A DNA stretch of 64,000 bases from Muricomes intestini (GTDB lineage Bacteria; Bacillota; Clostridia; Lachnospirales; Lachnospiraceae): the NCBI RefSeq assembly GCF_004346165.1, contig NZ_SLZZ01000001.1, forward strand, positions 1 through 64,000. The letters run 5' to 3'. A program made the translations under genes and the position numbers. Shown one piece after another: positions 33,993 through 57,166 of the stretch. The notes under the pieces are model-generated. The model saw nothing but the letters and a program-made list of their open reading frames with translations. It was not told the origin of the DNA and did not search any database. Each line of letters begins with the position of its first letter. The stretch's first letter is position 1.

Positions 33993-34844
33993 TTAAGATA
34001 ATGATAGTTGAATAGCATAAAGAATTCCACAAAGTGTATCTGAACCTGAAGAATGACCAATCTTACTAAAGTTATCAAATATTGAATGTTTGTCTGGCTT
34101 CAAAAGAGATACAACAGGAAGACTAAATTGATTCTCCAGTGCACAAGATAAAAAGGCTCCGCTAATATCATTCGTATTTTTTAAATGACTTTGTATCTCC
34201 TGGTGTAAAAAAGTTATAAAAGGAGAATCGGATTGGCCCGATAGAAGAAAACCAGCAAGTGTTCCGCACAAGAAGTCATCGCCACTTGGTGTTAATCCGA
34301 TTCCAAGACCGATTAGAAGTGATAATTTTTCAGCGGCTTTTTTATAATCTTTGTTTTGAAATAACATAGTACAATCTGCAAGATACTTCTCAGCAATGTC
34401 TAAAACAATAGAATCCGGCATGGAATCAGAGTTATTAAAAAGTGGTTGGAATCCAATTGGAGGAAAATCTAACAATGCTTGTTTTAAGGCTTCATTAAGA
34501 AAATTAATAGAAAAATTTGGGGGGATATTGTTTAATTTTAAATTATATCTGAAAACATTGGAGTATGAAAAAATAACATCGGCAGGGATCCCGATTTGTA
34601 TTTGACAATCAGCAATACGCACGGGCATACCTGGTTTTAAATTTAAGCACTCCATATCGGATGCGGATAGGTTAGTGATTAAACTAATTGCTGATATAGG
34701 AGAATCAGCTGTTTGCAGCGCAAGAAGGAAATTCCCTAATGTAATATTGACTGTTTTTCGGTATACAGAATGAATAGTACCGGTTTTGCTATCTGAAAGA
34801 ATTTGCCGTGCATAAGTAGATGTGTATGTAATGTTGTGCAACAT
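33993..34844 (-). CDS. allH: DUF2877 protein, AllH-like subunit of oxamate carbamoyltransferase
   Basis: The protein has 283 residues, no signal peptide. The DUF2877 signature LGIGLTPSGDDFLCGTLAGF is near residue 190; the rest is divergent, as is normal. In E. coli the homologue YlbF (AllH) has been reported to form oxamic transcarbamylase with FdrA (AllF) and YlbE (AllG), which splits oxalurate with phosphate into oxamate and carbamoyl phosphate. Here the AllF and AllG parts are fused in one gene 9 kb away, while allH is alone and divergent from the first hydantoinase-family gene. Control from the shared 266-base intergenic region would coordinate the two. The stop lies 18 bases from a bidirectional terminator. 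Confidence 0.82.
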   Translation of the reverse strand: MLHNITYTSTYARQILSDSKTGTIHSVYRKTVNITLGNFLLALQTADSPISAISLITNLSASDMECLNLKPGMPVRIADCQIQIGIPADVIFSYSNVFRYNLKLNNIPPNFSINFLNEALKQALLDFPPIGFQPLFNNSDSMPDSIVLDIAEKYLADCTMLFQNKDYKKAAEKLSLLIGLGIGLTPSGDDFLCGTLAGFLLSGQSDSPFITFLHQEIQSHLKNTNDISGAFLSCALENQFSLPVVSLLKPDKHSIFDNFSKIGHSSGSDTLCGILYAIQLSLS

Positions 34845-35110
34845 TTATGATAAGCCCTCCAAAAAAATGATATGATTTTATGACAATCACAAATTAATTT
34901 TAATATGAAGGGATAAAAAATACAATTATAATACAAAAAAATAAAAAAATTATACATATCAGACAAAAAAGAAATATATTTTCTCTGGTTCACGTAATTG
35001 TAATGTTGTAAAATCCTATTTAAAATATATTATATCAATTCGCTTTGGCCGACCGAATTACAACAACACTTTCTGGCAACATTGGAAAGGGAGCTATAGG
35101 AGGGAAATAT
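34845..35110. promoter_or_regulatory. Divergent control region of the ureide island
   Basis: This 266-base, very AT-rich gap separates allH (left) from the first allantoinase-like gene (right). A rightward promoter TTGTAA (34998-35003), 17-bp spacer, TAAAAT (35021-35026) is plausible. Its spacer contains GTTGTAA (35005-35011) and the leader contains AATTACAAC (around 35056-35064). The same TTACAAC core forms part of a perfect dyad upstream of the second operon (52800-52821). These may be binding sites for PucR or a related regulator. Confidence 0.45.
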
Positions 35111-36514
35111 ATGTATGATTTATTGGTAAAGAACGGAAAAATTGTAACGCCTGACTGTATTTATGAAGCAGACATTGCAGTGGATGATGGTGTATTTGCA
35201 GCATTTTTGGCAAAAGGTACTGATGTGGAAGCGAACGAGGTGATTGATGCGAAAGGAAACTATGTATTTCCAGGCATTATTGATTGTCATGCACATTTGA
35301 ATGAACCTGGATTTGAATATCGTGAAGATTTTGAGACTGGTTCAAGGGCTGCTGTTTCTGCCGGATGTACATGTCTGATCGATATGCCACTGAACAATGA
35401 TCCTTCATTGATGAACAAAGAGGTCTTTGACCTTAAAATGGGAAAAATCAGTAAACACTCAGCTGTTGATTTTGCACTTTGGGGAGGAATTGTAGGAGAC
35501 TATGATGATAAACCAGATTCAGTAAAAAACAATATGAATGATTTGATTGATCTACATAACTGTGGCGTTGCTGCATTCAAAGGCTTTACATGTCCAAATG
35601 GAAATCTTTTTCCAACAGTAAGTATGGGAAACGTTAGAAAAGCACTCGAGATACTGAAACCATATAATGCACTTTGTGGATTCCACTGTGAAGAATATGG
35701 TCAAGTTCTGGAAAGGGAAAAAGAAGCAAAAGCGAAAGAAGGAAGAACAAATCAGGAGAAAATTAGAGATTTTTTGGACTCTCATGATGTTTGGACAGAA
35801 TATGTTGCTACAAAAAATGTCATTGATATGGCAAGAGCGACGGGCGGACGTGTTCACATTTGCCATGTCAGCCATCCAATGGTTGCCCAAGTTGTAAAGG
35901 ATGCTATTTATGAAGGTCTTCCGATTACAGCGGAGACATGTCCACATTACCTTGGATTTACAGAAGATTTTGTATTTGAAAAGGGGGCTCCTGCAAAATG
36001 TACTCCTCCGATGCGCAAAAAAGAAGATATGGATAAACTTTGGGATTATGTATTAGACGGAACATTGTCCTGTATTGGAAGTGATCATTCGCCGGCAGCA
36101 GATGAAGAAAAAGATAATGCGACAAAAGATATCTGGCACGCATGGGGCGGACTTAACTCTATCCAATTCTTTCTTCCAATGATGTTTGATATGGTTGTTC
36201 ATCAAAGAAAATTAAGCCCAAGCTTGATAGCAAAGGTTATGGACTACAATCCTGCTAAGGTATTTGGCCTATATGGACGTAAAGGTGCATTTGAGATTGG
36301 ATTTGATGGGGACATTGTAATTGTTGATCCTGAAAAGGCATGGAAATGCAAACAAGAAGAACTTCTGACAAAAGGGCATGTCTCTTGTTTTGATGGCATG
36401 GAAGGTAAAGGAGCTCCTGTTTGTACAATTATTCGCGGCAAAGTTGTTGCTGAGGATGGGCTGTATAAGGATGAAGCCATTGGATATGGTGAATTTATTA
36501 CACCGGTAAAATAA
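35111..36514 (+). CDS. allB: Allantoinase/dihydropyrimidinase-family hydrolase, copy 1
   Basis: The protein has about 467 residues in the cyclic amidohydrolase superfamily. Metal ligands are visible: His60 and His62 in DCHAHLNEPG, the carboxylated lysine in AAFKGFTCP, His in VHICHVSHP, His in AETCPHYLGF and Asp in GSDHSPA. The AWGG-x-N/S segment before the C-terminus resembles E. coli AllB (allantoin to allantoate). It acts in the cytoplasm. ATG 35111 follows TAGGAGGGAAATAT. It is the first of two tandem copies, each followed by an NCS1 permease, so one copy may use allantoin and the other a related hydantoin; which is which cannot be told by eye. Confidence 0.85.
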   Translation: MYDLLVKNGKIVTPDCIYEADIAVDDGVFAAFLAKGTDVEANEVIDAKGNYVFPGIIDCHAHLNEPGFEYREDFETGSRAAVSAGCTCLIDMPLNNDPSLMNKEVFDLKMGKISKHSAVDFALWGGIVGDYDDKPDSVKNNMNDLIDLHNCGVAAFKGFTCPNGNLFPTVSMGNVRKALEILKPYNALCGFHCEEYGQVLEREKEAKAKEGRTNQEKIRDFLDSHDVWTEYVATKNVIDMARATGGRVHICHVSHPMVAQVVKDAIYEGLPITAETCPHYLGFTEDFVFEKGAPAKCTPPMRKKEDMDKLWDYVLDGTLSCIGSDHSPAADEEKDNATKDIWHAWGGLNSIQFFLPMMFDMVVHQRKLSPSLIAKVMDYNPAKVFGLYGRKGAFEIGFDGDIVIVDPEKAWKCKQEELLTKGHVSCFDGMEGKGAPVCTIIRGKVVAEDGLYKDEAIGYGEFITPVK

Positions 36515-37922: not shown

Positions 37923-39296
37923 ATGTATGACTTATTGGTAAAAAACGGAAAACTTGTGACGCCAGATTGTATTTATGAAACTGATATTGCTATTAAAGAG
38001 GGTAAAATTGCAGCAGTTTTAGAGCCTGGAATTGAGCTTGAAGCAATGAAGGTAATTGACGCCCAGGGAAAATATGTTTTTCCTGGGGCAATCGATACAC
38101 ATGCACATTTAAATGATCCCGGTTATGAGTGGAGGGAAGATTATGAGCATGGGACTGCGGCAGCAGCAGTCGGTGGTTACACGACGGTTATTGATATGCC
38201 TCTTCAGAACGAACCGGCAATGACAAATGCAGGTATAATGGATAAAAAACTTGCAAAGGTTGGCACAAATGCATATACGGACTACTGTTTCTGGGGCGGA
38301 CTAATTCCAGATAATTTCGATGACTTGAAAGAATTGGATAAGAAGGGATGCGTATCCTTCAAATCCTTTATTGGCCCGGTGTCTCCGGACTATAGCTCCC
38401 TAAACTATGGGCAGGCATACGAAGCAATGCAGATTATAAAGGAATTTGATGGACGTGTAGGATTTCACTGTGAGGACTATTCTATAATCAAGTGGCAGGA
38501 ACAGAGGATGAAAAAAGAAGGAAGAATGAATTGGAGAGGTTTCCTTGATTCCAGACCTGTTATCGCCGAGATGGTAGCGACAGTAGATATGATTGAAATC
38601 GCTAAAGCAACTGAATGTAAGATACATATTTGTCATGTGAGCAGCCCTGATGTGGCACAGAAAATTAAAGAGGCACAGGAAGAAGGTTATGATATAACTG
38701 CTGAGACGTGTGCCCATTATCTAAGCCTTACAGAAGACGACGTTATAGCAAAGGGCCCGCTGTTCAAATGTGCACCGCCTCTTCGGACACCGGAAGAGGT
38801 TGACAGATTGTGGAAATATGTAGAAGAGGGGGTATTCAGCGGTATTGCAAGTGATCATTCTCCTTGTTCATATGACGAAAAATACAATGAAATCCTTGGA
38901 AACAAGATTGGCAATGTATTTGATGTATGGGGTGGAATCAGTGGAATCCAGAGTTGCTTCCAGGTTGCATTTGATGAGGGCTGCGTAAAACGTAACATAA
39001 GCCCGACTGTACTTGCAAAATCTATGGCATACTTGCCTGCAAAAGCATTTGGAATCTATGGTAAGAAGGGTGATATTAAACCTGGGTTTGATGCGGATCT
39101 TGTTATTCTTGATCCCCAAAAGGAATGGGAAATCACCAATGATTCACTGTACTATGTAAACAAAATTTCAGCCTTCACAGGAAAGAAGGGAAAAGGACTT
39201 CCGGTTTTGACAATGATCCGTGGAACTGTTGTCGCAGAAGAGGGCAAAATTGTGGCTGAGAAAGGCTATGGGCGTTTCGTTAAAAAAAACAAATAA
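37923..39296 (+). CDS. Allantoinase/dihydropyrimidinase-family hydrolase, copy 2
   Basis: The protein has 457 residues and starts with the same MYDLLVKNGK as copy 1, even at the same residue numbers for His60/His62 (DTHAHLNDPG). The other ligands are present: lysine in CVSFKSFIGP, His in IHICHVSSP and in AETCAHYLSL, Asp in ASDHSPCSY. The segment DVWGGISGIQSC is closer to E. coli AllB (AWGGIAGLQSC) than the matching segment of copy 1, so this copy is the better candidate for the true allantoinase. The leader GGCTATAGGAGGGAAATA before its start is nearly identical to that of copy 1, evidence of tandem duplication. Confidence 0.87.
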   Translation: MYDLLVKNGKLVTPDCIYETDIAIKEGKIAAVLEPGIELEAMKVIDAQGKYVFPGAIDTHAHLNDPGYEWREDYEHGTAAAAVGGYTTVIDMPLQNEPAMTNAGIMDKKLAKVGTNAYTDYCFWGGLIPDNFDDLKELDKKGCVSFKSFIGPVSPDYSSLNYGQAYEAMQIIKEFDGRVGFHCEDYSIIKWQEQRMKKEGRMNWRGFLDSRPVIAEMVATVDMIEIAKATECKIHICHVSSPDVAQKIKEAQEEGYDITAETCAHYLSLTEDDVIAKGPLFKCAPPLRTPEEVDRLWKYVEEGVFSGIASDHSPCSYDEKYNEILGNKIGNVFDVWGGISGIQSCFQVAFDEGCVKRNISPTVLAKSMAYLPAKAFGIYGKKGDIKPGFDADLVILDPQKEWEITNDSLYYVNKISAFTGKKGKGLPVLTMIRGTVVAEEGKIVAEKGYGRFVKKNK

Positions 39297-41888: not shown

Positions 41889-42677
41889 ATGAGTTATTTA
41901 AATAATCAGGTAGGTTATCGAGAGGATCTTTTAGAAACCCGTACAGTAGTAAAAAAAGGAAATTATGTAATTCTTGAGCCAGATGGACTGGTAAAAAATA
42001 TTGTTCCTGGTTACTCAAACTGTGACGTAACAATTCTTGGGTCACCATCTATGGGAGCGTCATTTGCGGATTATCTCATTACAGTACATGAGGGAGGAAA
42101 AAATACAGGAATAGGAGGAGAAGGAATTGAATCTTTCTTGTATATAATTTCCGGTGAAGTATCTGTGAAGAATGATGACAAAGAAGCTGACCTTACAGCA
42201 GGCGGATACATTTTCTCACCGGCAGGAAACAATATCACATTTGAAAGCAAGGGAACAGAGGATGCCAAATTGTATGTTTACAGACGCAGATATGAAGCTT
42301 TGGAAGGATATAATGCTTATACGGTTGTTAACAATGTAAACAACATGGAATGGATGGAATATGAAGGAATGGCAAACTGCCACAGTAAAGATCTTCTTCC
42401 CTCAGCAAAGGATCTTGGATTTGATATGAACATGCATATTTTGAAGTTCAAACTCGGGGCTTCTCATGGATATATTGAAACTCATATTCAAGAGCATGGT
42501 ATGTACTTCCTTTCTGGAAAAGGCATATATCGTGTAGATGATGAATGGATTCCTGTAAAAGCAGGTGATTATATGTTTCTTGATGCTTATTGTCCGCAGG
42601 CTTGCTATGCAGTAGGACGTGAGGAAGATTTCGTTTATATTTACTCAAAAGATTGTAACAGAGATGTTGCTTTATAA
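41889..42677 (+). CDS. allE: (S)-ureidoglycine aminohydrolase
   Basis: The protein has 262 residues with a bicupin architecture: one cupin at about 60-115 (SGEVSVKNDDKEADLTAGGY) and a second at about 185-250 (THIQEHGMYFLSGKGIYRVD, KAGDYMFLDAYCPQACYAVG). It converts ureidoglycine, the product of allantoate amidohydrolase, into (S)-ureidoglycolate and ammonia with Mn2+ in the second cupin (H, E, H and Q ligands visible). The length matches E. coli YlbA/AllE (261). It starts the operon allE-allD-allFG-carbamate kinase, with AAAGGAGATATG upstream. Confidence 0.94.
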   Translation: MSYLNNQVGYREDLLETRTVVKKGNYVILEPDGLVKNIVPGYSNCDVTILGSPSMGASFADYLITVHEGGKNTGIGGEGIESFLYIISGEVSVKNDDKEADLTAGGYIFSPAGNNITFESKGTEDAKLYVYRRRYEALEGYNAYTVVNNVNNMEWMEYEGMANCHSKDLLPSAKDLGFDMNMHILKFKLGASHGYIETHIQEHGMYFLSGKGIYRVDDEWIPVKAGDYMFLDAYCPQACYAVGREEDFVYIYSKDCNRDVAL

Positions 42678-42702: not shown

Positions 42703-43755
42703 ATGAGACTTTCTCGGGAAGAGCTAAAAAGCTTAATGAAAAATAAATTAATTGCAGCAGGCCTAAAGGAAGAACATGCTGAGACAACGGCCGAAATTCT
42801 TACATGGGCCCATGAGAGAGGATATGCATCCCATGGAGCTGTCCGTGTAGAGTATTATGCAGAAAGAATTTCTAAAGGTGGCATCACAACAGAACCAAAC
42901 TTTACATGGAAAGAGACTGGGCCCTGCAGTGGAATCTTTGACGGAGACAATGGGGTTGGCTATGTAGTAGCAGAAGAAGGAATGAAAAAAGGAATTGAAA
43001 TGGCTAGAAAAAATGGGATAGCTGTCGTAGGCATGGCAAATATGTCACACAGTGGTTCTATTGGATATTATTCAGAGCTGGCTGCAAAGGAAGATCTTCT
43101 TGCAGTCACATTCTGCCAGTCAGATCCGATGGCAGTACCTTATGGCGGAACAGAGCCATATTATGGTACAAACCCAATTTCGTTTGCAGCTCCTACAGCA
43201 GATGACAGAACGGTCGTGTTTGATATGGCAACAACTGTTCAGGCCTGGGGGAAGATTCTTGACAAACGTTCACAAGGGGTATCTATTCCGGATACATGGG
43301 CTGTAGATGAAAAAGGAATGCCTGTGACAGATCCGTATTTGGTAAATGCATTAGTCCCGATTGCAGGTGCAAAGGGATACGGACTTATGATGATGGTTGA
43401 TATTTTCGCAGGCGTACTTCTTGGAGTACCGTTTGGAAAGCATGTAAGTTCTATGTATCATGACCTTTCTAAGGGAAGAGAATTAGGACAGATGCATATT
43501 GTAATAGATCCTGCAAGATTTATCGGTACAGAAGAATTCAAAAAGAGGATGTCAATGGTGCTTGATGAACTTGGAGAAATGCCTGCAGCAAAAGGATATG
43601 GAAAAGTATATTATCCTGGAGAACGTGCAATTATGAGAAGAGATAAAGCTTATGCAGAGGGCGGAATTGAAGTGGTTGATGAATTGGTAGATTATCTGAA
43701 GAGTGATGCAATTCACTTCAACCGCTATGATCATAAAAACAGATTCGCGGACTAA
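42703..43755 (+). CDS. allD: Ureidoglycolate dehydrogenase
   Basis: The protein has 350 residues, matching E. coli AllD (349). It belongs to the Ldh2/malate-lactate type-2 dehydrogenase family: NAD-binding pattern and motifs HERGYASHGAVRVEYYAERI, NMSHSGSIGYYSELAAK (catalytic His) and PYGGTEPYYGTNPISFAAP are present. It oxidises (S)-ureidoglycolate to oxalurate with NAD+, supplying NADH and the substrate for the next enzyme. In other contexts the family uses malate or lactate; the operon settles the call. The stop is 19 bases before the fused AllFG gene. Confidence 0.94.
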   Translation: MRLSREELKSLMKNKLIAAGLKEEHAETTAEILTWAHERGYASHGAVRVEYYAERISKGGITTEPNFTWKETGPCSGIFDGDNGVGYVVAEEGMKKGIEMARKNGIAVVGMANMSHSGSIGYYSELAAKEDLLAVTFCQSDPMAVPYGGTEPYYGTNPISFAAPTADDRTVVFDMATTVQAWGKILDKRSQGVSIPDTWAVDEKGMPVTDPYLVNALVPIAGAKGYGLMMMVDIFAGVLLGVPFGKHVSSMYHDLSKGRELGQMHIVIDPARFIGTEEFKKRMSMVLDELGEMPAAKGYGKVYYPGERAIMRRDKAYAEGGIEVVDELVDYLKSDAIHFNRYDHKNRFAD

Positions 43756-43774: not shown

Positions 43775-46700
43775 ATGTTAAAAACAGTTGTAAAAAAAGG
43801 AAGCTATCACGATTCCGTTGTTCTTATGCTTTTAACAAATAAGATTTCAACGATTAAAGGTGTTAAGAAAGTATCTATTATGATGGCAACACCGGCCAAT
43901 AAAGATATTTACAGACAGAGCGGACTTTCAACAGAGGCGCTTGAAGAAGCATCTGCCAATGATCTTGTTATTGTTGCTGATGTGGAGGAGGATAGTCTTC
44001 TTGATACAATCGAAGCAGAGATGGAAGACTTCTTTAAGAAACAATCCACAGTAAATGCAAAGAATAAAGGAACTGAAAGTGTAAAATCTTGGGGTAAAGC
44101 ACTGGCAAAACAGCCGGATGCTAATCTTGCAGTTATTTCTATTCCAGGTGAATATGCGGCTTTTGAGGCAGAGCGTGCACTGGATGAAGGCATGAATGTA
44201 TTCCTGTATAGTGATAACGTAACAATTGAAGATGAAAAAGCGTTAAAAGAAAAAGCGCATGCAAAGGGACTGGCAGTTATGGGACCTGATTGTGGTACAG
44301 GAATTATTCAGGGAGTACCTATTGCATTTACGAATAACGTGTCAAAAGGTTCTATAGGAATTATTGGCGCTTCAGGAACAGGTATCCAGGAACTTACGAC
44401 AATTATTGACAGACTTGGTGAAGGGGTTACGAATGCAATCGGAATTGGCGGACGTGACCTCAATGCTGCAGTTGGCGGTATCACGATGGCGGACATGATT
44501 GATGCTATGGAAGATGATGATACAGTAAAGGTTTTAATTATTGTTTCTAAACCACCGGCAAAAGAGGTAAGAGATAACATTTCCGATAGACTGAGCAACT
44601 TCAGTAAACCAGTTGTTACGCTGTTTGTGGGAGAAAAACCAGAATATCATGAGGAAAACTTCTACCACGCATATACATTAGATGAAGCTGCACGTCTTGC
44701 CGTTAGTCTTGTAAGAGGGACCAAAGCTCCAGAAGCAAGTGCCGATGCAGACGAATCAGAGTTTTTCAAAGCAGAAGAAAATAAGACAATTAAAGCATAC
44801 TATTCAGGTGGAACACTCGCAAATGAAGCAGCGATGCTCATCAAAGATGCAATGGATGTAAAAGTACCACCAGAGGATATTGAAGGATATATGCTTCAGT
44901 TAGAGGGCAATATTGTAGTTGACCTTGGTGATGATGCATATACAAAAGGAAAACCACATCCGATGATTGATCCGGCAAAGCGAATTGAGTGCATGGAAAA
45001 TGCAATCGATGATGAGTCAACGGGTGTGATTCTTCTTGATATTATGCTGGGATATGGATCACATGAAGACATGGCAGGAGCACTTCTTCCATCTATTATC
45101 CGTCTCCGTGACAAAGCAAAAAAAACAGGAAGAAGAGTATTCTTCATTGCAACTGTTTGCGGAACAAGGAAAGACTATCAGGGATATGATGAAGCTGTTA
45201 AAAAGCTGAAAGATGCAGGCGTTATTGTATGTGAAAATAATAAACTTGCATGCCGTACAGCAATTCGTGCAATTGGAAGAGATTTCAAAGAACCAGTGAA
45301 AGAAATCCGTGCAAAAAAAGTTGTAGAGGTAGAAAAACATACACCTTCTGAGAAACTTCGCCATCTTCTTTCAGACAAACCACATATTATTAACGTTGGG
45401 CTTAAGAGCTTTGCCGAAGTTGCAGAAAAGTTCGAATGTGAAGTGGTTCAGTATGACTGGATGCCGCCAGCAGGTGGAGACGTTGAGCTGATTAAGACTC
45501 TTAATTTCCTGAGGCATTATGAAGAAATTGATGAGGCCAATCAGAGTGTTATTGCGAAAGTGGTGGCAAGTCAGCCGGTATTGAAAGATAATGTCCGTGC
45601 AAAAGAAGTGATTCCAGAACTGAATAAAGGAAAAGTAATTCTTCATGCCGGTCCACCGGTTGCATATGAGAACATGCCAGATCCAATGCAGGGCTCTTGT
45701 GTAGGGGCTGCACTATTCGAAGAATGGGCAGACGATGAAGCTGATGCCAGAAAGCTTTTAGAAAGTGGAGAAGTGAAATTTATTCCTTGTCATCATGTAA
45801 ACGCAGTTGGACCAATGGGGGGGATCACATCCCCTAATATGGCTGTATTCGTTGTCGAAAATGAAACAGATGGAAATCATGCATACTGTACAATGAATGA
45901 AGGTATTGGTAAAGTACTTCGTTTCGGGGCATATTCAGAAGAAGTTGTAGAGAGACTTCGCTGGATGAGGGATGTACTTGGTCCAACACTTGGAAAAGTA
46001 CTTCGTACAATGGAAAACGGTCTTGCAATCAATCCATTAATTGCAAAAGCAGTTGCTATGGGAGATGAGTTCCATCAGAGAAATATAGCTGCTTCTCTTG
46101 CATTCTTAAAAGAAGTGGCACCATACATTACAGCATTTGATATGAATGAAAAAGATCGTTACGATGTCATTAAATTTCTTGCAGATACAGATCAGTTCTT
46201 TCTTAACATTATGATGGCGACAGGTAAAGCTGTTATGGACGGAGCTCGCATGATCCAGGCGGGCACCATTGTTACGGCAATGTGCAGAAATGGTTACGAA
46301 TTTGGCATACGTATTGCAGGTATGGGGGATGAATGGTTTACGGGCCCGGTAAATACTCCTCAAGGTCTGTACTTTACGGGATATGATGGAGAAGATGCCT
46401 GCCCGGATATGGGCGACAGTGCGATTACAGAGACATTTGGTGTTGGAGGAATGGCAATGATTGCAGCTCCTGCAGTAACAAGATTCATTGGTGCAGGCGG
46501 ATATAAAGATGCACTTTGTACAAGTAATAAGATGACTGAAATCTGTATTAGCAGAAACCCAAATTTCACAGTCCCGACATGGGATTTCCAGGGAATATGC
46601 CTTGGAATCGATGCAAGATTGGTTGTTGAAAAAGGTATTACACCAGTTATCAATACAGGTATTGCTCATAAGACTGCGGGATATGGTCAAATTGGAGCAG

Positions 46701-46777
46701 GTACTGTACATCCGCCAATTGAATGCTTCCAAAAAGCAATTGCGGCATATGCGAAAAAACTTGGTTTCGAAGGCTGA
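43775..46777 (+). CDS. allF-allG: Fused AllF-AllG (FdrA + YlbE/DUF1116) oxamate carbamoyltransferase subunit
   Basis: The protein has 1000 residues. Residues 1 to about 510 form an FdrA module related to succinyl-CoA synthetase alpha/beta: nucleotide/CoA-binding segment GIIGASGTGIQELTTIID, IGGRDLNAAVGGITMADMI and VFFIATVCGTRKDYQGYDEA. From about 525 to the end is a YlbE/DUF1116 module (PHIINVGLKSFAEVAEKFEC, GPMGGITSPNMAVFVVEN, GAGTVHPPIECFQKAI). E. coli has these as separate fdrA (about 555) and ylbE (about 420) genes, reported with ylbF as oxamic transcarbamylase: oxalurate plus phosphate gives oxamate plus carbamoyl phosphate. ATG 43775 follows AAAAGGAAG; an in-frame upstream ATG inside allD is unlikely. 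There is no stop or frameshift at the junction, so this is a true fusion. Confidence 0.88.
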   Translation: MLKTVVKKGSYHDSVVLMLLTNKISTIKGVKKVSIMMATPANKDIYRQSGLSTEALEEASANDLVIVADVEEDSLLDTIEAEMEDFFKKQSTVNAKNKGTESVKSWGKALAKQPDANLAVISIPGEYAAFEAERALDEGMNVFLYSDNVTIEDEKALKEKAHAKGLAVMGPDCGTGIIQGVPIAFTNNVSKGSIGIIGASGTGIQELTTIIDRLGEGVTNAIGIGGRDLNAAVGGITMADMIDAMEDDDTVKVLIIVSKPPAKEVRDNISDRLSNFSKPVVTLFVGEKPEYHEENFYHAYTLDEAARLAVSLVRGTKAPEASADADESEFFKAEENKTIKAYYSGGTLANEAAMLIKDAMDVKVPPEDIEGYMLQLEGNIVVDLGDDAYTKGKPHPMIDPAKRIECMENAIDDESTGVILLDIMLGYGSHEDMAGALLPSIIRLRDKAKKTGRRVFFIATVCGTRKDYQGYDEAVKKLKDAGVIVCENNKLACRTAIRAIGRDFKEPVKEIRAKKVVEVEKHTPSEKLRHLLSDKPHIINVGLKSFAEVAEKFECEVVQYDWMPPAGGDVELIKTLNFLRHYEEIDEANQSVIAKVVASQPVLKDNVRAKEVIPELNKGKVILHAGPPVAYENMPDPMQGSCVGAALFEEWADDEADARKLLESGEVKFIPCHHVNAVGPMGGITSPNMAVFVVENETDGNHAYCTMNEGIGKVLRFGAYSEEVVERLRWMRDVLGPTLGKVLRTMENGLAINPLIAKAVAMGDEFHQRNIAASLAFLKEVAPYITAFDMNEKDRYDVIKFLADTDQFFLNIMMATGKAVMDGARMIQAGTIVTAMCRNGYEFGIRIAGMGDEWFTGPVNTPQGLYFTGYDGEDACPDMGDSAITETFGVGGMAMIAAPAVTRFIGAGGYKDALCTSNKMTEICISRNPNFTVPTWDFQGICLGIDARLVVEKGITPVINTGIAHKTAGYGQIGAGTVHPPIECFQKAIAAYAKKLGFEG

Positions 46778-49608: not shown

Positions 49609-50850
49609 ATGGGAATTGAAGAAATTACAGGGAGAATTGCCAGAGACCTTGAACATCTGAAACAGTATACTGCAACACCAGGAAACGGATGTACAAGATT
49701 ACCATTTACAAAAGAGGCCAGAGAGGCTGTAAATTATTTGAAAGAACTTATGACGGAAGCAGGACTTGAGGTGTCAGAAGACGCGGCGGGAAATGTAATT
49801 GGTGTGTTAAAAGGAGAAGATTCTGAAGCACCAAGTGTTTTGATGGGTTCTCATTATGATTCTGTGGTAAATGGGGGAGATTACGACGGAATTGGTGGAG
49901 TTATTTGTGCAATTGAGGTTGCAAGACAATTAAAAGATGCAGGGCTTGTTCCTAAGAGGAATTTTGTTGTAGTTGGCTTCTGCGATGAAGAAGGTATGCG
50001 TTTTTGTACCGGATATTTTGGCTCAGGAGCAATGCTTGGAAACCGTGATGTTGCTTATACTAAGAGGTTTGCAGATACTTCTGGGATTACGGTGTATGAC
50101 GCGATGAAAGAATATGGGCTTGATCCGGAAAAAATAAAAGATGCAGCCTGGAAAGAAGGCAGTATCGGGCATTTCTTAGAGGTACATATTGAACAGGGGC
50201 CTGTACTTGATGCAGAAGGTTTTGACCTCGGGCTTGTAGATTGTATCGTAGGCATTCAGAGATACATGGTAACAGTTCATGGAAGGGCGGACCACGCAGG
50301 AACAACACCAATGGATATGAGAATGGATGCTGTAGATGCAGCTGCAAAGGTAATTTCCAAAATTGGTGATTGGGCCAGGGAAAAAGCGGATGGCTCGGTT
50401 GCTACTGTAGGTTATATTAATACTGTGCCTGGCGGCATGAACATTGTTGCAGAAGAGGTTCAGTTTACAGTTGATATTCGTTCAAGAAATAATGATAATA
50501 TCAATGATATTGCAAATCGTATCAGATGTGCATTGGAAAGGGAAGTTAAGATGTATGGCGGAAGCTTTGAGATGGATAATAAGCTTACAATTACACCTGT
50601 GCAATTATCAGAAGAAATGCTTGATATCATGGAAGAAGAATGTAAAGTAAGAGGATATACATATAAACGGCTTCCAAGTGGAGCAGGCCATGATGCACTT
50701 GAAATCGGCCAGGTCATCCCGACGGTTATGTTATTTGTACCAAGCTTGGAAGGCAGAAGTCATTGTCCGGTAGAATTTACAAAATATAGTGAATTTGCAA
50801 AAGCGGCAGTAGTTATGGAAAAACTTACAAAAGATCTGTTGATGAGATAG
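49609..50850 (+). CDS. allC: Allantoate amidohydrolase (M20 family)
   Basis: The protein has 413 residues. M20/hydantoinase-carbamoylase features: metal ligands in MGSHYDSVVNGGDYDGIGGV (His, bridging Asp), FCDEEGMRF (Glu pair) and LEVHIEQGPVLD (His), with a late SLEGRSHCPVEFT (His). It splits allantoate into ureidoglycine, CO2 and ammonia, feeding AllE. Size and order fit E. coli AllC (411). A ureidoglycolase or N-carbamoyl-amino-acid hydrolase role is possible, and a second M20 gene lies at 52933. A full MITE copy lies between it and the preceding transporter gene, so it may be transcribed separately. Confidence 0.87.
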   Translation: MGIEEITGRIARDLEHLKQYTATPGNGCTRLPFTKEAREAVNYLKELMTEAGLEVSEDAAGNVIGVLKGEDSEAPSVLMGSHYDSVVNGGDYDGIGGVICAIEVARQLKDAGLVPKRNFVVVGFCDEEGMRFCTGYFGSGAMLGNRDVAYTKRFADTSGITVYDAMKEYGLDPEKIKDAAWKEGSIGHFLEVHIEQGPVLDAEGFDLGLVDCIVGIQRYMVTVHGRADHAGTTPMDMRMDAVDAAAKVISKIGDWAREKADGSVATVGYINTVPGGMNIVAEEVQFTVDIRSRNNDNINDIANRIRCALEREVKMYGGSFEMDNKLTITPVQLSEEMLDIMEEECKVRGYTYKRLPSGAGHDALEIGQVIPTVMLFVPSLEGRSHCPVEFTKYSEFAKAAVVMEKLTKDLLMR

Positions 50851-51029: not shown

Positions 51030-51069
51030 ATAATATAGACAAAATTTGTGTTTTGTGGAAGGATTAAGT

Positions 51070-52740
51070 ATGGGAATCAGTGTAAAGTACCTTCTTCAGG
51101 TAAAAGAGCTAGAGGGTGTAAGCGTTCTATCAGAAAATGAAGGATTAGACAATGAAATCAAGGGAGTTACTATTATAGAGGCCCCGGATATTGTAAAGTT
51201 TATTAATGGTGGAGAAGTACTGCTTACTGGACTTTATGCATTTAAAGATTGCAGCATTGCAGCATTTTTAGAATATTTGAATGAGCTGGCAGGAAAAGAG
51301 GTTAGTGCAATTGCTCTAAAAAGGGGAAGAAATGTAGACAATGCGGATCTTAAAATAAAAGTATTGATGGAATTCTCAGCTGAACATAAAATACCGATAT
51401 TAGATGTCCCATTTGACATATCTTTTCGGAATATTATGAGTCTTATCATGGAGCATTTGTTCAATGAAGAAGTAACACGGCTTAAGTATTTTAAGACAAC
51501 TCATGATAACTTTGAGGCACTTGTACTTCAGGCCGATTCTTTCGATGGAGCGATAAAGAAAATCATAGATGTTCTTTCAAAATCTATCGATAACCCGGTA
51601 GCTGTGTTTGACCGTCATACGGCATGTGTTGCTGCAAGTGATGATGCAGAAAAAGAATTTGAAATTCAAAATAATGCGCGGAATTTTGAGCCGGAGATAT
51701 TTTCCAACTACAAATATCGGAGACAAAAAGGAAAATACGTACAGTATTTGATTAAGGTTAAATTAAATTTTGAGGAAAAGTTACACCTTGTAATAACTGA
51801 GAAAAATCAAGAATTTAATGTTATGGATTGCATCGCAACGGAAAGTGCGATTAATGCACTTCAACTTGAGTTTGCAAAACAATATGCAGTGCTGGAATTA
51901 GAAAAGAAGTTTCAGAACGATATTATGCATAATTTGTTAAATGGAAAAATTCACTCTGTGGAAGAATTAAGGAAGAATACGAGTTTATTGGGTGTTTCTT
52001 TCAACGGACATTTTCGCGTGATCGTGTTTGGCCTGGAAGATTCACGAAAAAATAGCATTGATTTACAGGAACAGGTGAAAGGCACGAATATTCTTGCAGA
52101 TGCAATTGTTAATTCGCTGAAGAACGTAAGAGTTCATAATGAAATTGATAGGATTGTTGTGATTCAGGAAGTGAGAGAAGAACAAACCCAAGAAGAATAC
52201 CGCATAGAAATACGCCGTGCTGTTGTGGAAATTCAGTCTTATATAGCAAAAAGAAAAAGGAACTTGAAAGCAAAGGCCGGTGTAGGAAAAGTTGTAGAAG
52301 GAATTATAAATCTGCCGGAGAGCTTTAAAGAAGCAAATGAAGCATCTAAGTTTATAGACATTGCCGGAGATATATCTGAAGACGGAGATTCTTGTGTTAT
52401 ACTCTTTTCCGATCTTGGAATCTTTAAATTATTAGCCCAGCTGAATGAGCAGGAACAACTTTTGGAATATATTCCGGAAGGGCTTAAGAAGTTGTTAGAT
52501 TATAAGAGACCACAAAGGGATGACTTATTGATAACTTTAAAGACATATCTCGACCGAAATTTGAATCTTTCAAAGACAGCACGAGATTTGTATGTACATT
52601 ACAAAACAGCATCTTATCGTATAGAAAAAATCATTAAAATTACGGGAATTGACTTTGATAATGCGAATGAAGTTTTAGCATTCCGTATTGGATTAGTTGT
52701 CTATAAAATGATAGAAAAGCATAATAAGGATTACATATAA
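51070..52740 (+). CDS. pucR: PucR-family transcriptional regulator
   Basis: The protein has about 556 residues. The N-terminal PucR/purine-catabolism domain covers about 5-125 (VSVLSENEGLDNEIKGVTII, then GGEVLLTGLYAFKDCSIAAF), with a middle GGDEF-like/CdaR domain and a C-terminal PucR-type HTH (NLNLSKTARDLYVHYKTASY, RIEKIIKITG). PucR activates ureide catabolism genes in Bacillus in response to allantoin-type compounds. Here it is the only regulator in the island and is the best candidate to control it. ATG 51070 follows GGAAGGATTAAGT. A strong terminator ends the gene. Confidence 0.92.
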   Translation: MGISVKYLLQVKELEGVSVLSENEGLDNEIKGVTIIEAPDIVKFINGGEVLLTGLYAFKDCSIAAFLEYLNELAGKEVSAIALKRGRNVDNADLKIKVLMEFSAEHKIPILDVPFDISFRNIMSLIMEHLFNEEVTRLKYFKTTHDNFEALVLQADSFDGAIKKIIDVLSKSIDNPVAVFDRHTACVAASDDAEKEFEIQNNARNFEPEIFSNYKYRRQKGKYVQYLIKVKLNFEEKLHLVITEKNQEFNVMDCIATESAINALQLEFAKQYAVLELEKKFQNDIMHNLLNGKIHSVEELRKNTSLLGVSFNGHFRVIVFGLEDSRKNSIDLQEQVKGTNILADAIVNSLKNVRVHNEIDRIVVIQEVREEQTQEEYRIEIRRAVVEIQSYIAKRKRNLKAKAGVGKVVEGIINLPESFKEANEASKFIDIAGDISEDGDSCVILFSDLGIFKLLAQLNEQEQLLEYIPEGLKKLLDYKRPQRDDLLITLKTYLDRNLNLSKTARDLYVHYKTASYRIEKIIKITGIDFDNANEVLAFRIGLVVYKMIEKHNKDYI

Positions 52741-52840: not shown

Positions 52841-52932
52841 AAAAGTATAAAATAGATAAAGTCAATAAATAAATAAAATCCATAAATAAATGGATGTCAT
52901 ATTGGAGAAATGCTAAAAGAATGGAGGCAGTT

Positions 52933-54174
52933 ATGAGAATTAATTTAGAAAGGGTTCTCTCACGCTTGGAAGAGCTATATCAGTGTGGCTTGCTCGAAGA
53001 TGGAAATCACACGCGAATGGCTTTTTCACCAGAAGATTTAAAAGGCAGGGAAGTATTCCAAAATTATTTTCGCAAGTTAGGCTTAGACCCCAGGATTGAT
53101 GAAGCTGGTAATAATATTGTGCGATTAGAAGGAAGAAATCCAGACCTTCCGGTGATTATGACGGGTTCTCATCTTGATACTGTTCCCGATGGGGGAAGGT
53201 ATGATGGTGCTCTTGGCTGTATCGGCGGCCTGGAGGTTTGTGAAACTTTGGTGGAAAATCATTATCAGTTAAATCACCCATTAGAAGTGATTGTTTTTAC
53301 GGATGAAGAAGGATTTCGATTCGGCAATGGACTTCTTGGAAGTAGCGCAATAGCAGGCGGAAAACTTGGCATATCAGAAAATGACACAGATCTTTATGGA
53401 GAAAAGCGCAGCGAGGTAATGAAGAAATGTGGTATTTCTGTAATGGATGCATATAAAGCTAAGAGAGACAAAGATTCTGTTCACTGTTTTATGGAATTAC
53501 ATATTGAACAGGGTGCTTCTTTATATAGGAATCAAACATCGATTGGAATTGTATCTTCAATTGCAGGTGTGCTCCGCTATGAAGTAACAATAGAAGGAGA
53601 GGCGAATCATGCTGGAAGTACGGTTATGGATGAAAGAAAAGATGCACTTGCAGCAGCAGCCAAATTTATTGCAAAGTTACCAAATATCATTAAATCTTGT
53701 GGAAATCATTACACGGTTGGCACTGTAGGAACAATTAAGGTAACTCCAAATTCTGTAAATGTAGTGCCAGGAAGTTGTACTTTCCAATTAGAAGTGCGTG
53801 ATCAGGATGAAAAAGTCATTAAGAATATTTGCAATCAAGCGAAAGAACATATAGAACAAATCTGCCGCGAGATGGGAGAGACTTGTACATTTACAAAGAT
53901 TTCTTATCATGAACCCGCACCAATGGCTGGTTGGGTAAAAGATGCAATTGAATGTGCTGTGAGAAAATTAGGCATTCAATATGAAATCGTACCAAGTGGT
54001 GCTTTTCATGATTCACTAATTATGACGGCAGCTTTTCCAACAGGCATGATTTTTGTGCCAAGTGTAGATGGAATTAGCCATTCAAGATATGAAAAGACAC
54101 TGGACAAAGATATTGAACAAGGATGCAATGCATTACTTCAAACAATTCTTGAAGTAGATGATGTAGCAGAATAA
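52933..54174 (+). CDS. M20-family amidohydrolase, N-carbamoyl-amino-acid hydrolase type (second copy)
   Basis: The protein has about 413 residues. Metal ligands are present: MTGSHLDTVPDGGRYDGALG, FTDEEGFRFG and MELHIEQGASLYRN, with a late SVDGISHSRYE. It resembles allantoate amidohydrolase and L-carbamoylase but differs clearly from the AllC at 49609, so a different N-carbamoyl substrate is likely. It heads an operon with a FAD oxidoreductase and EtfBA. I chose ATG 52933 because GGAGG lies 5 bases upstream; ATGs at 52894 and 52921 are in frame but poorly supported. Confidence 0.82.
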   Translation: MRINLERVLSRLEELYQCGLLEDGNHTRMAFSPEDLKGREVFQNYFRKLGLDPRIDEAGNNIVRLEGRNPDLPVIMTGSHLDTVPDGGRYDGALGCIGGLEVCETLVENHYQLNHPLEVIVFTDEEGFRFGNGLLGSSAIAGGKLGISENDTDLYGEKRSEVMKKCGISVMDAYKAKRDKDSVHCFMELHIEQGASLYRNQTSIGIVSSIAGVLRYEVTIEGEANHAGSTVMDERKDALAAAAKFIAKLPNIIKSCGNHYTVGTVGTIKVTPNSVNVVPGSCTFQLEVRDQDEKVIKNICNQAKEHIEQICREMGETCTFTKISYHEPAPMAGWVKDAIECAVRKLGIQYEIVPSGAFHDSLIMTAAFPTGMIFVPSVDGISHSRYEKTLDKDIEQGCNALLQTILEVDDVAE

Positions 54175-54200
54175 ACCCTAAAAAGTAAAGGAGGAAAGAA

Positions 54201-55361
54201 ATGGGAAAAAAGAGAATTGGAATTATTGGCGGTGGAATTTCAGGAACATGTCTTGGTTATCACTTAAGCCTCTATGATAATGCAGAGGTTGTTGTGTTTG
54301 AGAAAGACACTATTGGAGGTGCTTCCACAGCAAAGTCAGCAGGAACAGTATGTCTGTTTGATGACTCTCTAAAAAACAGATATTGGGACGTAAGATTATA
54401 CGGTTTCGAATCTTATCTGAAAATGGAAGCAGAAGAAAAAGGTTCTGCGGGATTTGACAAGACAGGTACTCTTGTTGTCGCAACGGATAAAAAAGTAGAG
54501 GCTACAATTAAGACTGGAATTGCCCTTGCAAAAGCCGCCGGATATTCGGGAGAGTATATTACAGATAAAGGCAGAATCAAAGAGATTCTTCCGGATATTG
54601 CTACAGATAATATCCTTGGAGCTGGATATACTCAGGAAGACGGATATTTTGATGGAACAATGATTTCTAATACTTATGCTAAGAAAATGCAGAAAAATGG
54701 AGGGGCCATTAAGACAGGTGTTAAAGTTACAGATGTAAAAGTTGTAGATAACAAAGCTACAGGACTTACAACAAGTGAAGGCGAAGATTATGAGTTTGAT
54801 GTAATTGTAGACTGTACAGGTCCATGGAGCAAATTCACAGGAGAAATGGTTGGGATGGATATTCCAATCTGGCATACAAAAGCAGAAGCATTCTTCTTAT
54901 GCCCTCCAGGAAAGAAACTTGATTATACATTCCCAGTGCTTAAGTATCCTGCATTCTATGGATTAAGAGCTGGAGATAATATTTTTATTTGCAAGTCTCA
55001 TTTGTCAATGGATTTGAATAATCCTATGCATGCAGGACAGTGGGATCCTGATAAACTTCCTGCAACAGGTGGGACAGATGATTACTTCATCGATTTCCTG
55101 CTTGATCAGTTGGAAATGAGAGTACCGGGAATTGTTGACAGTGGTCTTGTTTCTTCGTGGCTGTCTTATCGTGCAGAGCCAAAAGATTTCCTTCCAATTT
55201 TAGGAAAAACACCAGTAGAGGGATATATGCTTGCTACAGGATACGGCGGAAATGGAGTAATCGAAGCGCCGGCAGCCAGCAGAGATCTTGCAAAATTAAT
55301 TATGCGTGATGAGATGACACCACTTCTTGAAGACTGGGAATTCAACCGGTTATTAAAATAA
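54201..55361 (+). CDS. FAD-dependent oxidoreductase, DAO/DadA family
   Basis: The protein has 386 residues. The N-terminal FAD-binding motif IGIIGGGISGTCLGYHL (GxGxxG) and the C-terminal AO/DAO motif with GYMLATGYGGNGVIEAPA are clear; there is no membrane segment. The family includes D-amino acid dehydrogenase, sarcosine and dimethylglycine dehydrogenases and glycine oxidase. Since EtfB and EtfA genes follow directly, it probably passes electrons to ETF rather than to oxygen or a quinone. The substrate is likely the amine freed by the preceding amidohydrolase (glycine, sarcosine or another small amino acid); this is inference. AAAGGAGG precedes the start. Confidence 0.85.
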   Translation: MGKKRIGIIGGGISGTCLGYHLSLYDNAEVVVFEKDTIGGASTAKSAGTVCLFDDSLKNRYWDVRLYGFESYLKMEAEEKGSAGFDKTGTLVVATDKKVEATIKTGIALAKAAGYSGEYITDKGRIKEILPDIATDNILGAGYTQEDGYFDGTMISNTYAKKMQKNGGAIKTGVKVTDVKVVDNKATGLTTSEGEDYEFDVIVDCTGPWSKFTGEMVGMDIPIWHTKAEAFFLCPPGKKLDYTFPVLKYPAFYGLRAGDNIFICKSHLSMDLNNPMHAGQWDPDKLPATGGTDDYFIDFLLDQLEMRVPGIVDSGLVSSWLSYRAEPKDFLPILGKTPVEGYMLATGYGGNGVIEAPAASRDLAKLIMRDEMTPLLEDWEFNRLLK

Positions 55362-55393
55362 TCAACAGTAAAAAGGAAGAACGGAGTGTGAGT

Positions 55394-56188
55394 ATGAACA
55401 TAGCAGTACTGATGAAACAGGTTCCGGTTTCGAATGATGTATCGGTTGATCCAGAAACACATGCATTGATTCGTTCAAGCTCTGAAGGAATGATTAACCC
55501 TGCAGATTTAAATGCCATTGAAGCTGCACTTCAGTTAAAAGAGCAGACAGACGGCAAGGCAGTAGTATTTACCATGGGGCCGCAAGGTACACAGAAAGCG
55601 CTAATTGAAGCTATGGGTATTGGCTGTGATGAGAGTGTTCTCATTACAGACCGATGCTTTGCAGGTGGAGACACAATCGCAACAGCAAAGGTACTGGCAA
55701 GAGGTATCAAAAAGTATGGAGAGTTTGATCTTATTTTAAGCGGAGCATTGTCGGCAGATGGAGCAACCGGACAGGTAGGTGCAATGGTAGCAGAATATAT
55801 GGATGCACCATATGTCGGGGAGATTCAGGGGATTAAGTATGATGAAACAGACGCAGAACATGTAGTTGCAATTAAGAAATACCAAGATCAGGAATATCAT
55901 ATAAAAACAGAATTAACGGCAGTTATGAGCGTGTGCTTTGGATCAAATGAGCCAAGATTTGCAACTTTAAGAAGTATGAGAAAAGCAAAAACAAAACCCC
56001 TTCATGTTTATACGAATGAAGAACTTCAGATGGCAGCAGAAGATATTGGGCTTAGCGGTTCCCCGACAATTGTTACGGATTCATTTGAGCCGGAGAATGA
56101 AAGAAGAGCTGAGATGTTCACAGGGACACCTCAGGAAATGGCTGCGAAACTAAAGGAATTAATCGACAATGAGAAAGGAAAAGAATAG
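55394..56188 (+). CDS. etfB: Electron transfer flavoprotein, beta subunit
   Basis: The protein has about 264 residues. The EtfB fold starts MNIAVLMKQVPVSNDVSVDP, with EGMINPADLNAIEAALQLKE and SADGATGQVGAMVAEYMDAP as family landmarks (AMP/flavin-binding region). It forms a heterodimer with EtfA. ATG 55394 has GGAG 7 bases upstream. It immediately precedes etfA, so the pair is coupled. Whether it can bifurcate electrons (a second FAD in place of AMP) is unknown; a structural comparison would be needed. Confidence 0.95.
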   Translation: MNIAVLMKQVPVSNDVSVDPETHALIRSSSEGMINPADLNAIEAALQLKEQTDGKAVVFTMGPQGTQKALIEAMGIGCDESVLITDRCFAGGDTIATAKVLARGIKKYGEFDLILSGALSADGATGQVGAMVAEYMDAPYVGEIQGIKYDETDAEHVVAIKKYQDQEYHIKTELTAVMSVCFGSNEPRFATLRSMRKAKTKPLHVYTNEELQMAAEDIGLSGSPTIVTDSFEPENERRAEMFTGTPQEMAAKLKELIDNEKGKE

Positions 56189-57166
56189 ATGGCGAATGGA
56201 ATTTGCATATTTGCAGAATATTATAATGGTAAAATAGAGCCTGTTACAGCAGAGCTGATTACTGCAGCACATTTCATTAAAGAAACGACAGGCGAAAAAA
56301 TTCAACTGATTGTCGTAGCCAAAGATTGTGACCAGCTTGTAAAACAGCTTGAGCCGGCAGGAGCAGATGAGGTTTATGCTGTTGAAACAAAAAGAGATTG
56401 TATATTTCAGGATGATGCGCTTAGCAGTGTAATTACAGATATGATTCGAAAGATTGAGCCCTCAAGTGTGCTTATACCGGCTACACCAATGGGAAGATCT
56501 ATCTTTTCACGTGTAGCATCGAAATTAGGATGTGGATTAACTGCTGACTGTACAGAGGTATTGACGGCAAAGAGAGAAGATGGTACTTTTTATATAAAAC
56601 AGAACAAACCATCTTTTGGAGAAAATGTATTTGTTACGATTGAAACAAAACCAGGCATTTACCCACAGATGATGACGATAAGGCAAGGCGTATATACAGC
56701 TTATGAGGGAGAAACAGATGCAGTGAAAGTAACATATTTAGAAAATATTGAAATCCCTGCATCAAAATTAGAGGTAGTAGAAGTTGTTCCTGCAAGGAAT
56801 GACACAAACAGCATTCTTGCATCTGAGACAGTTGTAGTAGGAGGCCGTGGAGCAGAAGAGGAAGAGGATTTCGCATTATTGAAAGCATTTGCAGAAAAAT
56901 TAGATGCAGCAATTGGAGGAACTAGACCACTGGCAGATAGTGGTAAGATCCCATTCCAAAATCAGATTGGGCAGACAGGATTTACAATTCGTCCAAGAAT
57001 TTGCATTTCAATAGGCGTATCTGGAGCAATTCAGCACACAGAAGGAATTAAAGATACGAAATTGTTTGTTGCGATAAATACAGATGAAAATGCTGCGATT
57101 TTCAATGTTGCGGACTATGGAATTGTAGGAGATATGAAAGAGTTATTAGAAGCATATCTTAGTTAG
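56189..57166 (+). CDS. etfA: Electron transfer flavoprotein, alpha subunit
   Basis: The protein has 325 residues. The C-terminal FAD domain shows IGGTRPLADSGKIPFQNQIG, then QTGFTIRPRICISIGVSGAI and NTDENAAIFNVADYGIVGD, the family hallmark for flavin binding. No extra N-terminal ferredoxin domain is present. It starts directly after the EtfB stop. The partner dehydrogenase is most likely the DadA-like protein upstream. Electrons could go to Bcd-type acyl-CoA reductases or another acceptor elsewhere in the genome. Confidence 0.95.
   Translation: MANGICIFAEYYNGKIEPVTAELITAAHFIKETTGEKIQLIVVAKDCDQLVKQLEPAGADEVYAVETKRDCIFQDDALSSVITDMIRKIEPSSVLIPATPMGRSIFSRVASKLGCGLTADCTEVLTAKREDGTFYIKQNKPSFGENVFVTIETKPGIYPQMMTIRQGVYTAYEGETDAVKVTYLENIEIPASKLEVVEVVPARNDTNSILASETVVVGGRGAEEEEDFALLKAFAEKLDAAIGGTRPLADSGKIPFQNQIGQTGFTIRPRICISIGVSGAIQHTEGIKDTKLFVAINTDENAAIFNVADYGIVGDMKELLEAYLS

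Follow-up and report, generated by a model that had tools for sequence, protein, structure and literature searches.

A single-chain AllF-AllG protein with an intervening small module in the allantoin-catabolic cluster of Muricomes intestini

Oxamic transcarbamylase takes part in breaking down a purine waste product. Measurements of its activity date from the 1960s, names for its genes came only in 2024, and, according to the accessible part of PMC11326118, the subunit composition is not yet settled. That same part reports the purification of Escherichia coli AllFGH and its assay as oxamic transcarbamylase, in agreement with the role that the original prediction had given to AllF, AllG, and AllH. 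E. coli K-12 also carries a second, paralogous AllH/AllF/AllG set, YahE-YahF-YahG (yahEFG). To our knowledge, this set has no assigned substrate. In openly accessible literature, including the accessible parts of PMC3364942, PMC8550087, PMC12507026, and PMC12625717, we found no description of an AllF-AllG fusion or of the small module described below; in the accessible part of PMC11326118, the word “fused” is absent, and the one instance of “fusion” concerns a lacZ reporter.

In the window (the whole stretch of M. intestini DNA that was analysed, 64,000 nucleotides), the counterparts of AllF and AllG are encoded as one chain. The open reading frame runs uninterrupted from 43775 to 46774 on the plus strand, with its stop at 46775-46777, and encodes 1000 residues counted from an ATG that lies 19 bases past the allD stop and is preceded by a purine-rich stretch. 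An alternative upstream GTG start would give 1024 residues, and no ribosome site is visible before it. The single 1000-residue frame of the original prediction was thus recovered at exactly its coordinates, while the division into an FdrA part (residues 1-510) and a YlbE part (525-1000) had to be redrawn: the AllF core ends at about residue 510, a third module occupies about 525-580, and AllG spans about 581-1000 (Table 1). We refer to the third module as the link. AllF was recognized by NCBIfam NF004760 (690.7 bits, cut-off 433) and AllG by PF06545 (321.2 bits, cut-off 27). Pfam returned three matches, CoA_binding (191-283), Ligase_CoA (342-497), and AllG (667-882), and the alignment to the NCBIfam FdrA model spans residues 1-579.

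Table 1. Modules of the fused protein and neighbouring features in the window
Feature	Coordinates	Strand	Evidence or remark
AllF (FdrA) core, residues 1-510	43775..45304	+	Succinyl-CoA-synthetase-alpha-like domains plus Ligase_CoA domain
Middle module (“link”, name coined here), residues ~525-580	45347..45514	+	Free-standing gene elsewhere
AllG (YlbE/DUF1116) core, residues 581-1000	45515..46774	+	Pfam; sequence and structure comparison
AllH (DUF2877) homologue, 283 aa, third named oxamic transcarbamylase subunit	33993..34844	-	Pfam PF11392
Carbamate kinase (AllK role), 312 aa	46791..47729	+	Pfam, NCBIfam
Ureidoglycolate dehydrogenase AllD (makes oxalurate)	42703..43755	+	Above TIGR03175 cut-off
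(S)-Ureidoglycine aminohydrolase AllE	41889..42677	+	Above TIGR03214 cut-off
Allantoate amidohydrolase-type protein (AllC role)	49609..50850	+	Above NF006771 cut-off, below TIGR03176 (AllC) cut-off
Amidohydrolase, probable allantoinase (AllB role)	35045..36514	+	Pfam family only; role suggested by the cluster
Second amidohydrolase, AllB-like	37923..39296	+	Pfam family only; putative role
PucR-family regulator	51046..52740	+	Pfam

A frame of this kind could in principle be an assembly or sequencing artefact that lost a stop codon. This is conceivable because 7 of 39 split pairs with the link on AllF have their AllF and AllG frames parted, in frame, by a single stop, and one base would fuse them. 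However, frames of like length occur in 13 of the 17 family-sample genomes with AllG, as well as in 33 named loci among the best 80 from 520 relatives. Moreover, the junction has four in-frame start codons (between 45461 and 45600), and by eye a clear ribosome site precedes none of them, so separate synthesis of AllG is unlikely. Given fusions of 999-1037 residues in 34 other loci (33 from the best 80 of 520 relatives, plus L070 from Enterococcus faecalis), a frameshift or assembly error is implausible. We therefore rejected an artefactual origin, to which we assign almost no probability.

Consistent with this, the database search for further FdrA-DUF1116 fusions that had been proposed alongside the original prediction returned the same fusion of about 1000 residues many times. 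In the family sample, AllG was present in 17 of 299 genomes, 13 of which had an open frame of at least 1000 residues around it; a fourteenth (G215) has a fused frame cut by a contig end. The order sample held AllG in 19 of 392 genomes, with frames of at least 1000 residues in 7, and the phylum sample in 60 of 398, with such frames in 2; the three samples overlap. Among the best 80 of 520 relatives (one contig scan), the 33 loci with full-length fusions of 999-1037 residues carried titles that refer to Lachnospiraceae, Dorea, Drancourtella, Anaerostipes, Lacrimispora, Hungatella, Clostridium, Lacticigenium, Enterococcus, Tetragenococcus, Halolactibacillus, Amphibacillus, Falseniella, Fundicoccus, Hutsoniella, Allofustis, Saccharibacillus, Enorma, a Coriobacteriia MAG, Chloroflexi MAGs, and Propionivibrio dicarboxylicus, among others. 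The fusion is widespread and expected rather than rare, and it is already present in sequence records. In E. faecalis IDRL-9065, for example, it is WP_002355249.1 (1003 aa, L070), labelled acyl-CoA synthetase FdrA, which has the same AllF-link-AllG order and is 56.5% identical to the window's protein. It differs in that the DUF2877 (AllH) gene directly follows the fusion, with arcC and allD nearby, and in falling in the second fusion cluster of the tree described below. Enterococcus gilvus CR1 carries a split AllF/AllG pair among allC, allE, allD, DUF2877, and arcC. We also note that one Proteus mirabilis record (L072, NZ_OL790812.1), listed as a plasmid, is 4.09 Mb long and is more likely a chromosome.

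The fusion sits within an allantoin-catabolic cluster, and its own flanks hold candidates for each step from allantoin as well as two NCS1-type permeases. The adjacent carbamate kinase scored above the NF009007 cut-off and just under that of TIGR00746 (354.4 vs. 358.25). The AllH homologue of the original prediction was confirmed at its position on the minus strand (83.8 bits against PF11392, cut-off 25), and across the whole genome AllG and AllH each gave one match. This AllH is divergent, sharing 17-43% identity with 42 others, and lies 9 kb from the fusion on the opposite strand. It is likewise upstream and on the opposite strand in the related loci L081, L084, L085, and L087, and it directly follows AllG in many other loci. 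Its structure model is confident (mean pLDDT 95.6). A structural search of the PDB gave no match at E ≤ 0.001 (best Z 3.5), which speaks for neither a new nor a known fold, and a sequence search of the PDB gave no match at E ≤ 1. The ATCase/OTCase Pfam domains of classical transcarbamylases are absent from both the fusion and AllH.

Two further arrangements were seen. In L125 (11267-13099) and L144 (11250-13058), AllH and carbamate kinase lie in one open frame (611 and 603 residues between stops), possibly a second fusion in the pathway or a frameshift artefact. In the window itself, positions 52894-57166 encode a second M20 hydrolase and, after it, a DAO-type FAD oxidoreductase and the two subunits of an electron-transfer flavoprotein, which perhaps form a separate catabolic unit.

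With AllF, AllG, and AllH all recognized by their family models and AllD and carbamate kinase linked to them, an oxamic transcarbamylase appears plausible here, as had been proposed. The locus resembles that of E. coli AllFGH in its three common protein families, in having carbamate kinase and AllD nearby, and in joining the link to AllF. By contrast, E. coli makes AllF and AllG as two chains and has AllH after AllG, whereas here AllH lies at a distance of 9 kb on the opposite strand. The fusion had also been expected to impose a 1:1 stoichiometry; this holds for AllF and AllG within the fused chain, but AllH remains a separate protein. As independent support for the joint action of AllF and AllG, the fusion is sound evidence, but it adds little beyond the purified E. 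coli AllFGH (accessible part of PMC11326118).

To follow the link beyond the window, we built a profile from fusion residues 523-582, iterated to 52 positions, which recognized the link in 142 frames; among 19,155 shuffled frames, the top score was 8.2 bits. Of the 148 rows of our AllG tree, 51 carry the link within a fusion, 39 at the C-terminus of AllF, 29 at the N-terminus of AllG, and 17 in a small frame of its own, while 12 showed none. For two of these 12 (L063 and L064), the frame before AllG carries it, and with L122 and L086 cut by contig ends, 16 free copies remain. In E. coli K-12, it occupies residues 508-554 of AllF (62.2 bits) and residues 4-51 of YahG (57.5 bits) rather than any part of YahF; the two paralogous sets thus place the link on opposite partners. 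In Bradyrhizobium acaciae, two different AllF/AllG sets adjoin each other (L149, 9658-12744 and 13837-16982), one with a free link and the other with the link on AllG.

For the module, Pfam gave no family at E ≤ 1 with the three copies searched, PHROGs gave none for the window's copy, and among NCBIfam models only the tail of the FdrA model (positions 500-555) exceeded chance level. The sole strong match in a PDB profile search was 3dmy, E. coli FdrA (E 1.2e-19; next 0.0076). The AllG-type structure 3clq, from E. faecalis V583, is numbered 58-474. E. faecalis DNA within an unverified phage record encodes a 474-residue AllG that begins with the link, and the sequence after the link agrees with 3clq in the parts compared by eye. 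The 3clq crystal therefore appears to be without the link module. The record in question, named Enterococcus phage Efs 1-1-1 (OR846613.1, L157:6526-7962), carries AllF and AllG genes and looks like host DNA.

One could regard the link as a mere C-terminal tail of AllF, with its free and AllG-borne copies left by incidental gene fission and having no function of their own. In favour of this view, E. coli AllF and all 39 rows with an AllF-borne link have it as their final 50-60 residues, and the NCBIfam FdrA model includes it. However, the free copies look like genes. They encode 56-73 residues from plausible starts, mostly behind a purine-rich stretch suited to a ribosome site, while AllG keeps its own start. 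Over 52 codons, pN was below pS in all six comparable pairs of the nine tried (0.049-0.282 vs. 0.573-0.952), with synonymous sites near saturation in several pairs. Free copies also occur in more than one gene order, AllF-link-AllG in 14 of 16 and link-AllG-AllF in 2 (L149 and L151), and in the divergent paralogues of G139, G253, G409, and G215, the link lies in a frame of 65-149 residues that, from its coordinates, seems to be beyond AllF.

Co-occurrence points the same way. In the phylum sample, 57 of the 60 AllG genomes had a link match (E ≤ 4.5e-5), the exceptions being G655, G835 (where the AllG frame contains a TGA), and G955; in 19 of the 57, the link lay in a frame of 56-83 residues (that of G794 near a contig end). 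Among the 338 genomes of this sample that lack AllG, no match reached 1e-4, and three were weak (0.002-0.009; G760, G822, and G975). When 11 whole genomes were searched, six gave matches (G139, G409, G496, G215, G253, and G211). These included three in which the short loci had shown none (G139, G409, and G496), two that carry another copy in addition to the fused one (G215 and G253), and one with a link known beforehand (G211); no match was found in G468 (75% complete), G340 (broken AllG frame), G655, G835, or G955. We thus consider an AllF tail an unlikely account of the link. A fourth, unnamed part of about 55 residues in AllFGH-type enzymes, which would dock AllF to AllG and perhaps complete the active site, seems to us slightly favoured, and if it exists, three-gene reconstitutions would be inactive in species with a free link.

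To determine how often the fused state arose, we used a tree of AllG cores with 148 rows, 51 fused and 97 split. It omits the window's own copy (L001), the fragments L023, L024, L038, and L039, a split pair with a short AllG frame (L104), and the second piece of L143. Here the fused state needs five changes, four of them forced by starred branches. A restricted tree of 86 rows (49 fused) keeps only fusions and rows with an AllF-borne link, and leaves out L069, L086, L122, L078, L081, and L143 on account of contig ends, near-identity, outlying position, or a broken frame; on it, the fused state needs four changes, three of them forced. A single clade of all fusions was rejected on the restricted AllG tree (p-AU 0.007; a quick tree with long branches), so fusion or fission appears to have occurred more than once. 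In the 148-row tree, the first fusion group holds the window and Lachnospiraceae rows. The second is mixed, with Bacilli, Chloroflexi, Propionivibrio, Enorma, and two rows of the window's own family (L014 and L019), and a lone Coriobacteriia row (L118) makes a third placement. The Faecalicatena contorta row (L089), a neighbour of the first group, is a genuine split, with one in-frame stop followed by AGGAGG and ATG.

The single-chain AlphaFold model of the fusion (mean pLDDT 84.7, pTM 0.76) was built from 28 aligned fusions. In it, the link forms a strand (537-542), a helix (544-552), a second strand (556-560), and two helices (565-568 and 570-580), and it runs almost directly into the AllG helix 584-598. 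The modelled AllG superposes on 3clq (Z 54.0, 413 aligned, rmsd 1.8). The modelled AllF matches 3dmy (Z 38.3, 423 aligned) with an rmsd of 19.4, indicating that the domains are arranged differently.

AllF residues 12-313 share the fold of SucD, the succinyl-CoA synthetase alpha subunit (Z about 18-19; 1jkj_A, Z 18.6, 215 aligned, rmsd 2.7), and of ADP-forming acyl-CoA synthetases. The SGT and GPNC motifs bind phosphate in SucD. The Ser of SGT and the Cys of GPDC, the AllF form of GPNC, were the same in 30 of 30 AllF rows, and the S, G, T, and later E of SGTxxxE did not vary among the 28 fusions compared and also occur in E. coli AllF and YahF. In the MAFFT alignment, which is gappy at this point, 29 rows have Tyr and 1 row has Phe opposite the SucD phosphohistidine. 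Between E. coli AllF, E. coli YahF, and the window's protein, only the last has a His within 34 residues from the KP motif; H292, in the loop after the motif, is nearly invariant among fusions. Across AllF and YahF, the phosphohistidine thus seems to have no conserved counterpart, although H292 leaves some room for one in the fusion group. The ATP-grasp (beta) family is absent from the fusion, its only Pfam matches being the three given above, and the accessible part of PMC8550087 reports that no succinyl-CoA synthetase activity was detected for FdrA (data not shown there).

Taken together, we consider it probable that the single-chain AllF-link-AllG protein is part of an oxamic transcarbamylase that cleaves oxalurate with AllH, the link holding the AllF-AllG interface. 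By analogy with E. coli, the fusion and AllH would convert oxalurate and phosphate to oxamate and carbamoyl phosphate, from which the neighbouring carbamate kinase would make ATP. AllF would act as a succinyl-CoA synthetase minus its ATP-grasp half, performing the transfer-to-phosphate half of the reaction on the carbamoyl group. Without a conserved phosphohistidine counterpart, the acyl-phosphate-like product would be released rather than used to phosphorylate a nucleotide. An earlier paper stated that the reaction resembles that of a CoA ligase “in no way” (accessible part of PMC3364942), and our interpretation departs from it in suggesting that the AllF reaction may be akin to half of that of succinyl-CoA synthetase. 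We further infer that the link sits at the AllF-AllG interface and keeps both together, which would explain why it can be free, on AllF, on AllG, or inside the fusion. Counting against this reading are the three of 60 AllG genomes without a link match, the divergent and distant AllH, the near-invariance of H292, the gaps in the alignment around the phosphohistidine, and the departure of the modelled domain arrangement from 3dmy.

The fusion could also work alike on an N-carbamoyl compound other than oxalurate, as AllFG paralogues such as YahFG presumably do. The second set in E. coli K-12 would be compatible with this, as would the AllF/AllG pairs that many genomes carry in other clades and with other gene orders. 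However, in the tree the fusions form one clade together with pairs from Citrobacter, Proteus, and Gilliamella in which AllF bears the link, as in E. coli AllF (the tree has no row for E. coli AllG itself). The window's copy, moreover, has allD on one side and carbamate kinase on the other. A different substrate therefore seems quite improbable to us, and oxalurate remains the substrate that we infer.

Natural single-chain AllF-AllG forms offer a simpler object for structure work, and the mobile module of about 55 residues points to a piece that may join the subunits. It also warns that “three genes” are not a complete part list in many bacteria. The link is likely an uncounted component of the “three-gene” oxamic transcarbamylase class, and as such a more valuable find than the fusion itself. 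Finally, the likeness to half of succinyl-CoA synthetase suggests a testable mechanism for an enzyme that has been described as unlike known transcarbamylases.
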